Shown: positions 20,060-25,254 of the stretch, piece by piece
How the letters are laid out: each line of letters opens with the position of its first letter
Position numbering within the stretch: the first letter of the stretch is position 1
From: Thermococcus onnurineus NA1
GTDB taxonomy: Archaea; Methanobacteriota_B; Thermococci; Thermococcales; Thermococcaceae
Length of the DNA stretch: 64,000 bases
NCBI RefSeq assembly: GCF_000018365.1
Contig: NC_011529.1
Span: forward strand, 868,001-932,000
Direction: 5' to 3'
The notes under the pieces: model-generated
Told to the model about the DNA's origin: nothing
What the model saw: the letters and a program-made list of their open reading frames with translations, nothing else
Databases searched by the model: none
Position numbers and translations under genes: made by a program

Positions 20060-20995
20060 TTAGGGGAGGCTCACTCCCCCGGTAGCAGCCAGGTAAAGGA
20101 AGTAGCAGTATATCGCCAGCAGGACTCCACCGGTTGCTCTACTCACTCTGCCCGTGAAGCGGAGCGCTCCCGTCAATATGCCCATGACAAGAAGCGTTAG
20201 CGGGAGGATAAAGGTATATATAGTTTGGTCAACTCTGATTGGGTTTATAAGCGCCGCAACTCCTATGACCACAAGCATGTTAAGGATGTTGGCACCGATG
20301 ATGTTGCCCACGCTGATGTTGGGGAGCCGTTTTATGGTGGCCATTAGGGAGTTAGTGAACTCAGGCAGGGAGGTTCCTATTGAGACCATCGTAAGCCCTA
20401 TAATCACTTCGGGAACACCGAAGGCCCTCGCGAGGGTGACGGCGCTGTCGACGACGAGTTTCGCACCAGTGACAACGAGCAGTCCGCTCCCGAACATTAT
20501 AAGCGCGTCCCGCTTTGGATTTCCGCGCCCTCCTTCCGGAAGCTCTTCCAGGGTCATGTGCTTTTGGTAGAGGTAGTAGAGGAAGCCAAAGTAGATGAGT
20601 ATCAGGCTCGCGCCGTCGAGCCTGCTTATCGTGCCGTCGTACATGAGCAGTCCAGCGTAAGCTGTGACCACTATCATGAAGAGGGCGTTCTTCCAGGCGG
20701 TTCTCTCGACCTTAAGCGGGCGGAGGAGTGATGAGACACCGAGGATAAGGGCTATGTTGGCGAGGGCACTCCCGATGGCATTTCCGAGGGCGATGTCAGG
20801 TTTTCCCTGATAGGACGATATCGCCGAGACTGTGACCTCGGGCAGGGTCGTCGCTATGCTTGCCAGAACGAGCGCTATAATGAACTCACTCACTCCAAAG
20901 CCCTTGGCCACCCTCGAAGCGGCCTCAACGAAGAAATCGCTCCCCTTGATTAGAAGGGCGAGTCCCACAATGAACATGACTATTTCAACTACCAC
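20060..20995 (-). CDS. Sodium/calcium exchanger family membrane protein
   Basis: This 311-residue cation antiporter has about ten transmembrane helices and two inverted alpha-repeats. Each carries the ion-binding motif: GNAIGSALANIALILG in the first half and GNIIGANILNMLVVIG in the second, with the partner PEVTVS and SIGTSLPEF segments. It likely exchanges Ca2+ for Na+ or H+. The start is taken as the GTG at 20995, four bases after GGTGAG; an ATG at 20977 would shorten helix 1. Confidence 0.88.
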   Translation of the reverse strand: MVVEIVMFIVGLALLIKGSDFFVEAASRVAKGFGVSEFIIALVLASIATTLPEVTVSAISSYQGKPDIALGNAIGSALANIALILGVSSLLRPLKVERTAWKNALFMIVVTAYAGLLMYDGTISRLDGASLILIYFGFLYYLYQKHMTLEELPEGGRGNPKRDALIMFGSGLLVVTGAKLVVDSAVTLARAFGVPEVIIGLTMVSIGTSLPEFTNSLMATIKRLPNISVGNIIGANILNMLVVIGVAALINPIRVDQTIYTFILPLTLLVMGILTGALRFTGRVSRATGGVLLAIYCYFLYLAATGGVSLP

Positions 20996-21033
20996 TGCCC
21001 TCACCAGAGTAGGCTGGGAAGAGTCCTTAAAAG

Positions 21034-21546
21034 TTATTTGGCTCCGTAGCCCCCGTTCCCCTTGCCCTCCATTTTGATGACGTAGTCCGCAGCATTCTGG
21101 AGGGCCACCGAAAAGCCGGGCTCAACTCCAATAACTATCGTCTCCTTCCCCTTGCGCTTGGCCTCATTAATTATCGGCAGAAAATCAGCATCTCGGGTCG
21201 CTAAGGCTATTACCTCGACGTCGGAGTTGTATATGAGCTCCATGGCTTCTATGGCTATTCTCACGTCGGTGTCGCCGGCGACTATAATTGGCTCAAGCCC
21301 CTGGTTGACCACGGCCTCTATCAGCCCCTGGGGCGCGTACTGGTTGAGGACAACCTTTGCAACGCGGATTTTGCCGATCCTTTCCAGAGCCTCGACGATG
21401 TCCTCCAGCTTTATGCCGAACTCCTTCCTGAGGATGTTGGGCCCATCGATAATAAGGCCTATACTCTTCTTGCTCTTTGGCTTTGGGGACTTTTCCTCGA
21501 CCTCCTTCTCGCCGCGCTTAAGGACCTTGAAGAGAGTCTCCCTCAT
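21034..21546 (-). CDS. NYN-domain (LabA/TIGR00288) putative ribonuclease, intact active site
   Basis: This 170-residue protein is of the PIN-like NYN fold. After a basic N-terminus, residues ~30-160 hold the fold with all expected acids: IDGPN, the TDVRIAIEA Asp and the TRDADFLP pair. Such proteins are metal-dependent RNases, though this family has no proven substrate. Its ATG overlaps the stop of the upstream paralogue (ATGA), so the pair is translationally coupled. It is about half identical to that partner by eye. Confidence 0.85.
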
Positions 21547-22055
21547 CCTTCCTCACCATTCGGTGTCAAGATTATCGTGTAATCGGCGGCATGTTTAAGG
21601 GCCGCGCTGAATCCCGGCTCTATACCTATGACTATCGTCTCCTTGCCCTTCTCCTTTGCCTTGAGTATAACCGGCAAAAACTCCGCGTTTCTAGTCGCCA
21701 AAGCTATGACGTCGATGTTCGGGTTGTATATCTCTCTCATGGCTTCGACTGCGAGTTTTACTCCAGTCTCGCCGGAAACCACAACTACCTCAAACCCCTG
21801 GTTGGAGACGGCCTCAATTAAACCCTGAGGAGCGTACTGGTTGAGTATGACTTTAGCAACCCTGAGGTCGCCGATGTCCTCCAGAACGTCCACTATGTCT
21901 TCCAGTTTTACTCCAAACTCCTTTCGGAGAATGTTTGGGCCGTCAATAAGCAGCGCTATCTTCTTACCCCTGCTTATCTTTCGCCTCATCATTCCTATAC
22001 TCCGCATCCCCTCCTTTGTTATCGATACTATCTTCTCCCAGTTGCTGCCTGACAT
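21543..22055 (-). CDS. NYN-domain paralogue with degenerate active site
   Basis: This 170-residue protein is aligned throughout with the downstream gene. It keeps IDGPN but has [10 protein letters not shown] where the partner has [10 protein letters not shown], and TRNAEFLP where the partner has TRDADFLP. Three catalytic acids are therefore replaced by Gly, Asn and Glu. I infer a structural or RNA-binding partner rather than a nuclease. The ATG at 22055 follows GGTGACAGCT; the GTG at 22064 is inside that leader. Confidence 0.83.
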
Positions 22056-22214: not shown

Positions 22215-22642
22215 ATGAAACTTTTAGTCGTGAAGAAAGTTAAAAGTCCAGGAAAGGTTCCGCTTAAATGGAAACTTACAACGCTCCTTCTTGGATCACA
22301 ACTGCCTTAATGGCACTCTTTGCAGTGTACACCATTATGGGCGACAATTTTGATGACAACGGAATAACCGGTGCCGTAGCAGGTATAAGTGCCGCCCAGC
22401 TCATAAGACCAACGATAGAGAAGCTGAAAAAACACATATTCAAGACCTACGTTTCCCTAGTCTTCCTCAACACGCTCCTCGCGGCGCTCATAGTGAACCA
22501 CTTCAACTTACAGCCTGAGGGCACGCTCCAGTTCATGGGGGCCTTCATAGTGGTCTACATACCCCTCTCTGTCTTTGATTACAGCCTGATAAAGGCTGCC
22601 GGCAGAATATCGGAGAACAGACAGAACGGCGGGGCGGAATGA
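22215..22642 (+). pseudogene. Small membrane protein gene with a frameshift near its N-terminus
   Basis: The expected start is ATG 22215 after a strong GGGTGAGAGAG and behind a TATA box (AAATTTAAAAC near 22156). It reads MKLLVVKKVKSPGKVPLKWK then TTLLLGSQLP and a TAA at 22308. One base added near 22303 would let it run on as ALMALFAVYTIMG and a 110-residue body with four hydrophobic segments, ending RISENRQNGGAE. The body also opens from an ATG at 22268, but that has no ribosome binding site. I do not know the family. The defect is decay or a base error. Confidence 0.55.
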
Positions 22643-22695: not shown

Positions 22696-25128
22696 TCACA
22701 GGAGCCGCTTGTAGTAGTACCAGAGCCCCCTGATTATGTCGCGCACCTCTATCATGGTGAAGGTCTCGGTTCTGTCAATGAGCTTGGCAGTCTCTTCCCA
22801 GCTGTGGGCCTGCAGGACGCGGTAGATGAGGAGCTTTATCTGGCGCTCGTCGAGGTAGGGCTTCATCCAGCCGTCGAGGAAGTAGAGTTTGACGATGGGC
22901 TTAACTGCATCGACGACGGTATCGTAGGTGAGCACCTTACCCGTGAAGGCGTCGAGGCGCTTCCTCTGGACCTCGGTCAGGTGTATGGGGTAGTCAACGG
23001 CCTCTCCAAAGGGACTCTCAAAGAGCCAGCGGGCTATCTCCGGTTCGAGGTCGCGGTGGGTGTCGCCCAGCCACTCGGTGAGCCTTATGCGGAACTCGTC
23101 GTTGGCCTTCTTTATGAGCTTCTTGGCCTTCTCACTGAGGGGCTTAAGGACTATCGCCGTGAATTCACCGCTGACGGGGTTTCTGGCAGGGCTGAGGTGG
23201 ACCACCGCAAAGCCGTTCCTAACCCAGAAGCGGACGAGCTCCTCGCTCGCTCCAAAGCCCGAGCCTATCCAGTCAAGGCCCTTCTTTCTCGCCTCCTCTT
23301 CGAGCAGCTCAAGAGCCTTGCTTCCAAGCCCCATATCCATCGCATCTGGATGGGTGGCGATTCTAACTATCCTGTAGCCTTTCAGCTTGGCGAACTCCTT
23401 CAAATAGTGGTGCTTGACCATCATGTCCGGAATTATGTTCCCACGGGGCTTGTAGCCCTTTGCCATCTTATCTATGACCTTCTTCGGAATGTTGCCCTCC
23501 TTGGCTATCTGTATCGCCGTGACTATCTTTCCGTTCTTCAGGCGGAGAACGCGGGCCTCGTGGTGTGGGGCATCGGCAAGTAAAGCTACATCGCTCGGCC
23601 TGTTGCGGTAGTGGGCGAGGATGTAGATTCCAACGAAGTTCCTGAGGTCTTCCCTGTCGTTCTCGAACCAGTCGTCCAGGTCGGGCTCCTCGAAGTAAAC
23701 CTCTTTCTTCTTTATCAGCTCGTAATCCTCGTCGGTAAGCTCGACCGGCTCGGCATCAAGGAGCAGAACGTCGAAGAGCCACTTCTCTATGGGATCACCC
23801 TCGGCGTAGCGTATCGGCTCGTCCATGTGGAGCTCCTTGAATTCCCTCTTTTCGCGGGCTTTCTTGAGGAACTTGACCGAGAAGCCCCTACCTGCACCTT
23901 CATAACCGTGAATCGTGGAGGAATAAACTACGCGCGGCTTGTTCAGATACTTGTGGAGTATGGGCACGTGGATTCCGGCGGCCTCGTCGAGGATGTAGAG
24001 GTCGGCGCTTTTTCTGTAGCCCTCGGTCGGCGGATAATAGCGCAGACCTATCTTCCTCGCGTAGAGCTCCTTTATCAGACCCTTCTCCTCAACGACGTGG
24101 GGCTTGAAGCCGAGCCTCTCAAGGGCCCTTTTGGCGAAGCGGAAGAGGCTCTGCACGTTCTCTGGTTCGGGGGCGGTGACTACTATCCTTGTGCGCTTCT
24201 TAAGTGCCAGGGCAAGGCCTATCGCCGCTATTCCAACGGAGACACTCTTACCCCTGCCCCTGTCAGCGGTGAGAACGACCATACCCTCGTTCTCAACGAG
24301 CTCTTCGAAGGCCTTCAGGACTTCAACTTGACCTTCAGTTAAGGCCATCTCGTAGAGCTCGCGCGGGAAGATAGTTTCTTCGGGAATATCGACGCCCTTT
24401 CTGCCCTTTATCTTGGCCTGGCTCTTGTTCCGTTTGGGCTTCTTCCGGACCTTCCCGTTCTCGGTAATTATGTAGATGCCATCGTGCTCCGTGAACTTTC
24501 TGATTAGACGCCTGTTGAAGCGCTTCTTGACGTCGTCGATGGTGTATGGGGGAGTAACAAGGCTCTTGTGGAAGCCCGTCCACATGTTCTTCCACTTCTC
24601 GAATGGGTGGGCCAGCACGAATATTAGGCCGCCTCCCCTAACCGTCTCGATTATCCTTCCGAGGTCGTTGGGGGAGTAGTCGTAGCTGAGGTCAAGAACG
24701 AGGAGGTCATAGGTTCTTCCGAGTATGTCCCGGGTGTGCTTGAAGGTTACGGCTTTAACGTTAACATTAGAACCAGCCAAAACGTCGAAGTGCTTTCTAA
24801 AAGACTCGTAGCGCTTCCTTCCGAAGGTTTCCTCTCCGAGGGCATCGGTGGCGTAGAGGACATCAATTTTATCCTCGCTTTCATCGCGGAGACGTTTCTT
24901 CTTCAGCTCGTCTATAACGTCGCTCAGAACCTTGGCCGAGGCTCCCGCAAGAATTCCGGCCAGCTCGGCCTTCCTCAGGGTGTCCCCTTCGATGACGATC
25001 ATTCTCCGGTGGAACTTCTCCAAAGCTTGAGCAAGGGCCGTCTCGGTGAGCTTGAGAACGGAATCCTTAACCTTCTCGCCCTTGGCGTAGTCTCTCACTT
25101 CCTTATCAAAGCGGACCTTGACGGTCAC
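22696..25128 (-). CDS. tmcA: tRNA(Met) cytidine acetyltransferase TmcA
   Basis: This enzyme installs N4-acetylcytidine in RNA using acetyl-CoA and ATP. In Thermococcus the homologue acetylates many CCG sites in rRNA, tRNA and mRNA. The 810-residue protein has an N-terminal domain, a RecD-like helicase module (Walker A TADRGRGKS near 280, DEAAG), a GNAT acetyltransferase module (ATHPDAMDMGLGSKAL) and a C-terminal tRNA-binding tail ending WYYYKRLL. I use the GTG at 25128 (MTVKVRFDKE), placed after GGTGACGGCC, because it matches the known Thermococcus start. Confidence 0.95.
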   Translation of the reverse strand: MTVKVRFDKEVRDYAKGEKVKDSVLKLTETALAQALEKFHRRMIVIEGDTLRKAELAGILAGASAKVLSDVIDELKKKRLRDESEDKIDVLYATDALGEETFGRKRYESFRKHFDVLAGSNVNVKAVTFKHTRDILGRTYDLLVLDLSYDYSPNDLGRIIETVRGGGLIFVLAHPFEKWKNMWTGFHKSLVTPPYTIDDVKKRFNRRLIRKFTEHDGIYIITENGKVRKKPKRNKSQAKIKGRKGVDIPEETIFPRELYEMALTEGQVEVLKAFEELVENEGMVVLTADRGRGKSVSVGIAAIGLALALKKRTRIVVTAPEPENVQSLFRFAKRALERLGFKPHVVEEKGLIKELYARKIGLRYYPPTEGYRKSADLYILDEAAGIHVPILHKYLNKPRVVYSSTIHGYEGAGRGFSVKFLKKAREKREFKELHMDEPIRYAEGDPIEKWLFDVLLLDAEPVELTDEDYELIKKKEVYFEEPDLDDWFENDREDLRNFVGIYILAHYRNRPSDVALLADAPHHEARVLRLKNGKIVTAIQIAKEGNIPKKVIDKMAKGYKPRGNIIPDMMVKHHYLKEFAKLKGYRIVRIATHPDAMDMGLGSKALELLEEEARKKGLDWIGSGFGASEELVRFWVRNGFAVVHLSPARNPVSGEFTAIVLKPLSEKAKKLIKKANDEFRIRLTEWLGDTHRDLEPEIARWLFESPFGEAVDYPIHLTEVQRKRLDAFTGKVLTYDTVVDAVKPIVKLYFLDGWMKPYLDERQIKLLIYRVLQAHSWEETAKLIDRTETFTMIEVRDIIRGLWYYYKRLL

Positions 25129-25254
25129 GGCCGTCACCTCCCAGAGAAGAGAGGGTAGGGGGCTTAAAAAGGTTAGGAGGTTCAGAGAGTCTCTCGATAA
25201 TCATCGAAACGCTAAGCTTTTATACGAAAAGAACCCAAATCCATCGGTGGTTCC

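Follow-up and report, generated by a model that had tools for sequence, protein, structure and literature searches.

An order-wide pair of intact and altered NYN paralogues in Thermococcales, a putative two-subunit endoribonuclease

Results

Two overlapping TIGR00288 genes in Thermococcus onnurineus NA1

The window, i.e., the whole 64,000-nucleotide stretch of contig NC_011529.1 of Thermococcus onnurineus NA1 that was analysed (positions 868,001 to 932,000), carries two adjacent genes for paralogous NYN/TIGR00288 proteins. The upstream gene, here called D, has an altered active site and the downstream gene, here called A, has an intact one. The features of the locus are given below in window coordinates.

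22696..25137, minus strand: tmcA-like gene for a tRNA/RNA cytidine acetyltransferase, upstream of D-A in 4/6 genera
21543..22055, minus strand: D gene (upstream), NYN/TIGR00288 paralogue with altered active site, 170 aa, motifs GETGVK and RNAEF
21762..21770, minus strand: D codons E96-T97-G98, matching D92-T93-D94 of A; Gly stands in place of the second catalytic Asp
21681..21689, minus strand: D codons N123-A124-E125, matching D119-A120-D121 of A; Asn stands in place of the third catalytic Asp
21543..21546, minus strand: ATGA overlap of A start and D stop
21034..21546, minus strand: A gene (downstream), NYN/TIGR00288 paralogue with intact active site, 170 aa, motifs IDGPN, GDTDVR and RDADF
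21265..21273, minus strand: A codons D92-T93-D94; D94 is the second catalytic Asp
21184..21192, minus strand: A codons D119-A120-D121; D119 is the third catalytic Asp
20060..21004, minus strand: calcium/sodium antiporter gene, downstream of D-A

The A and D proteins share 60% identity, and the NA1 genome has no third copy. Both pass the curated TIGR00288 cut-off (219 and 210 bits vs 178), with matches spanning almost the whole model, and both are members of Pfam NYN (PF01936) above its curated cut-off. TIGR00288 is an NCBIfam hypothetical equivalog, and its model takes in the altered as well as the intact paralogue without separating them. The two genes carry the same automatic annotation name, although D is very probably no nuclease. 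An initial annotation, made from this DNA alone, had described two paralogues overlapping by ATGA, and the start of A and the stop of D do share positions 21546-21543.

Active-site residues and predicted folds

Residues are numbered throughout after the intact copy A. NYN RNases have three absolutely conserved Asp residues, i.e., D13, D118 and D143 in the B. fragilis enzyme, D358, D426 and D452 in MARF1, and D14, D92 and D115 in VPA0982 (PMC11346440). Their counterparts in A are D34, the Asp of the IDGPN motif, together with D94 and D119, the equivalence of which was taken from an alignment to VPA0982 with an offset of 3 between crystal chain and protein numbering. A carries this whole triad as well as D92 and D121. 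D keeps D34 and N37 and, like A, has the IDGPN motif, but differs from A by D92E, D94G, D119N and D121E, and by N151H. The motifs that had been read from the sequence were therefore correct, while the three altered acids then counted are in fact four, with N151H in addition.

The active-site acids of D are lost: with G94 and N119, two of the three absolutely conserved NYN Asp residues are gone. Three carboxylates (D34, E92 and E121) are retained, so weak metal binding would be possible. The reading of D as a pseudo-nuclease next to an intact nuclease gene A is well supported, and we infer that D would be unable, and A able, to cleave.

The predicted models have a mean pLDDT of 86.8 and a pTM of 0.84 for D, and of 85.4 and 0.81 for A. 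Their best fold matches are VPA0982 (2qip) and the MARF1 NYN domain (6fdl), each with a Foldseek probability of 1.00, and both proteins are accordingly predicted to share the NYN (PIN-like) fold. MARF1 NYN, VPA0982 and the CRISPR-associated NYN ribonuclease have the same three catalytic Asp residues as A, but they are single intact domains with only about 14-21% sequence identity, and no dedicated inactive paralogue of any of them was described in the literature examined.

The pair and its residue states are fixed across Thermococcales

We surveyed 94 Thermococcales genomes from six genera. Both genes were present and adjacent in 89/94, with D always preceding A; the remaining five lacked both A and D, four of these being incomplete, and one copy was never found alone. 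Neither gene was detectable in a genome of genus g4 (G076) that is 96% complete, the only good candidate for a real loss of the pair.

At residues 34, 37, 92, 94, 119, 121 and 151, A reads D N D D D D N in 89/89 copies and D reads D N E G N E H in 88/89. The 89th D copy has a frameshift just upstream, with E G N E H still present. This frameshifted gene (L170, reverse strand, in G029), in which the lesion lies near the NILRKEF motif, belongs to a nearly complete Thermococcus genome, and the frameshift is either a real lesion or a sequencing error. With regard to the three Asp residues that mark a competent NYN RNase, A has all of them in 89/89 genomes, whereas D has D34 in 88/89 and the changes D94G and D119N in 89/89. 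A further, Archaeoglobus-like NYN gene (L094 and L047; contig JALTMZ010000077.1) in a MAG labelled Thermococcus seems to result from a binning error, and the third copy that it would add to that genome (G091) is to be disregarded.

Being fixed in every pair from six genera, the adjacency and the residue changes are not due to chance, and the fixed residue states of the D copies mean that the losses are neither strain-specific nor decaying. The alignment across Thermococcales that the initial annotation had put forward as a check thus rules out a loss limited to this strain.

The ATGA overlap is found in 45 pairs and a GTGA overlap in 7 more, so the exact ATGA is not fixed. Nearly all other pairs overlap by more, and in one genus the D stop lies within the conserved NYN core of A. 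Exceptions exist, e.g., G024 and G063, in which A starts just after the D stop; at the G063 locus (L023) D and A are in frame with only TGA TAG between them. When a tethered D-A query was built on this locus, the alignment rows all fell on the D half. The overlap supports a probable joint translation of D and A; gene overlap is also a frequent way of saving space in compact genomes.

The genes around the pair are less constant. tmcA lies upstream of D-A on the same strand in 4/6 genera, while the pair sits elsewhere in g3 and g4. In the window, between tmcA and D-A, there is a 124-aa ORF (22268-22642, plus strand) that is present in only some Thermococcus genomes and had no NCBIfam match. An antiporter gene often follows the pair directly on the same strand and is probably just a neighbour. 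A general functional link to tmcA was considered and rejected, as the linkage is absent in g3, in g4 and in the other archaeal contexts examined; where the two are linked, in four genera, this gives no more than a hint of stable-RNA metabolism. The tmcA gene of T. kodakarensis is tk0754, next to which the D-A pair would be expected from the gene order in related genomes. The thermosensitivity of a tmcA transposon mutant was complemented (PMC6393311), so this phenotype provides no evidence on the NYN pair.

Origin of the pair and constraint on D

In the sister orders of the same class there is mostly a single full-length copy in which the acids D34, D94 and D119 are kept. A maximum-likelihood tree was built without positions 92, 94, 119 and 121. 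In it, A forms one clade (99/93) and D another (100/99), with the single copies outside both. The two clades are sisters with a support of 86/47, so that the sister relation of A and D has only moderate support. Since single copies with the acids occur in the sister orders, one duplication and inactivation would be placed on the Thermococcales stem, and the simplest reading is that of one tandem duplication there, with the upstream copy probably inactivated before the genera split.

Purifying selection on D is as strong as on A: in pairwise comparisons of close relatives the median dN/dS was ~0.019 (D) and ~0.026 (A). Among 42 positions that are invariant across the single-copy relatives and A, D shows a full replacement at only five (D92E, D94G, D119N, D121E and N151H), and four of these five fall among the five active-site acids (hypergeometric P = 0.0015, two partly variable sites counted). 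The catalytic acids of D are gone and little else has changed. The pair is real, ancient and constrained, and the pairing of an active nuclease with a pseudo-nuclease that was originally suggested for this strain is upheld by losses that are order-wide, derived and ancient, in a gene under strong purifying selection.

The N-terminal segment is conserved to 60% in D vs 22% in A, and that of D is the more basic. Against the N-terminal profile of the single-copy relatives D has a median of 4.9 bits vs -1.0 for A, a weak match, so the reading that D has retained an ancestral N-terminal module lost from A is only suggestive and was not adopted.

A second pair in Methanobacteriales, and Asgard relatives

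Several Methanobacteriales genomes have a second TIGR00288 copy that is not linked to the first (second copies L215-L221, L284-L290 and L292), and the intact copy is kept in the same genomes. The second copy has N119 in 14/15 rows examined, one MAG copy (L191) keeping D119, and in one subclade D121E is found besides D119N, as in Thermococcales D. When the active-site columns were left out of the tree, these second copies nested inside Methanobacteriales, and forcing the altered copies together with Thermococcales D was rejected (AU p = 0.013), from which it follows that an intact/altered pair evolved at least twice. At two methanobacterial loci (L031:2914-5846 and L291:4972-7827) a gene for RNA 3'-terminal phosphate cyclase is found two genes away from the intact copy.

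Asgard archaea have pairs of divergent TIGR00288-like proteins with acids changed in both copies (L189-L193, L251-L268 and L293-L303). The changes are H94, H119 and R121 in one type and N119, with D94 kept, in another, for which a composite or a different active site is conceivable.

Discussion

The leading explanation for these observations, supported only indirectly, is a putative hetero-complex of A and D, which the initial annotation had suggested to be obligate. It draws on the perfect co-occurrence of the two genes, their overlap, the kept fold, the repetition in Methanobacteriales and a precedent in Regnase-1. More precisely, the locus would encode a two-subunit NYN endoribonuclease in which A is the catalytic subunit and D a fixed secondary subunit that binds A, a reading to which we give somewhat better than an even chance. 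D would then most likely serve such a hetero-NYN RNase as its dedicated non-catalytic subunit. Both the binding of A and D and RNA as the substrate are putative.

The history behind such an enzyme may have been as follows. An ancestral archaeal TIGR00288 nuclease, probably a homodimer or oligomer, would have undergone tandem duplication of its gene on the Thermococcales stem, after which the downstream copy A would have kept the catalytic acids, while the upstream copy D would have lost two of the three core metal-binding Asp residues (D94G and D119N) and exchanged two further acids for Glu. The fold of D would have been retained, as would its basic N-terminal segment and almost all of the remaining invariant residues of the family. 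It may now bind A and help to hold or position RNA at the active site of A, as an inactive Regnase-1 PIN domain can, and the overlapping genes on one message may keep the subunits in balance. That the replaced positions in D are mostly active-site acids, with the fold and the other invariants kept, supports this reading of D as a specialised subunit. A TmcA-controlled mirror-tree analysis gave an A-D correlation no higher than that of A with the neighbouring antiporter, and is therefore not counted as support.

The closest precedent that we found is Regnase-1 (MCPIP1/ZC3H12A), whose PIN/NYN domain forms a head-to-tail dimer, and in which a catalytically dead D226N/D244N domain rescues partners without RNA-contacting residues (PMC4772114). 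It belongs to the same superfamily, and a domain without its acids is able to act as the 'secondary' partner of an active one. However, Regnase-1 is one gene and its inactive form was engineered, whereas the Thermococcales pair consists of two dedicated genes. Furthermore, Regnase-1 is absent from the top fold matches of the A and D models, its interface is not known to recur in D-A, and the comparison of G94 and N119 of D with D226N/D244N is one by description. NYN nucleases also need not dimerise, given that the MARF1 NYN domain is a monomer in solution (PMC6294520).

Alternatively, D could be a free-standing RNA-binding protein derived from a nuclease, which protects or marks the RNAs cut by A without a stable A complex. 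Such conversions are a recurrent event in the fungal RNase II family, where the Ssd1/Dis3L2 pseudonucleases are conserved RNA-binding proteins that lost their acids independently and repeatedly, sometimes after duplication (PMC8097288); these differ from D-A in being eukaryotic, in belonging to the RNase II family and in having no tandem active/inactive gene pair. The retention of the non-catalytic invariant residues in D and the more basic N-terminal segment would suit a free-standing protein, as would the unlinked copies of Methanobacteriales, which also count against an A-D complex. In Thermococcales, however, the genes are always adjacent, in the same order, almost always overlapping and never single, and this constancy fits a stoichiometric assembly better than a free-standing D, which we regard as unlikely though worth keeping in view.

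Less probable still is that D inhibits A, occupying A or its substrate groove until a signal arrives in the manner of an upstream-encoded antitoxin or chaperone. The upstream-first order with translational overlap is usual for inhibitor- and chaperone-type pairs and is seen here, and the strong constraint on the altered paralogue would also agree with an inhibitor. However, the pair is vertically inherited and nearly universal in the order, unlike mobile toxin-antitoxin modules, and the single-copy relatives of A in the sister orders are without such a partner. The patchy, mobile distribution of a type II toxin-antitoxin system is not what was found: inheritance is vertical, with one locus per genome in the 89/94 genomes, and a plasmid search gave a single distant match, in Natrinema. 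It is highly improbable that D has remained an enzyme that uses D34, E92 and E121 for a modified metal chemistry or on another substrate. Two of its four changes replace Asp by Glu, which keeps the carboxylate, and every change is fixed, but D94G and D119N take away two of the three absolutely conserved Asp residues and the Regnase-1 D226N/D244N double mutant is without activity (PMC4772114).

The initial annotation knew of no described role for the pair, and this stands within our literature searches, which were limited in coverage and gave nothing on this family under TIGR00288 or archaeal NYN protein. TIGR00288 proteins occur in almost all Thermococcales and are widespread among other archaea, and an intact/altered pair that is fixed in one order and repeated in a second points to a heteromeric RNase. 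Taken more broadly, archaeal TIGR00288 nucleases may be asymmetric NYN-NYN assemblies that at least two lineages have independently split into catalytic and non-catalytic genes, with Asgard archaea perhaps resembling them, a generalisation that we place a little short of an even chance. If the hetero-NYN RNase is real, the Thermococcales pair would amount to a natural and fixed form of the engineered primary/secondary arrangement of Regnase-1 and an undescribed heteromeric archaeal RNase, and the non-catalytic role played by the engineered Regnase-1 mutant would be one that can become a gene of its own.
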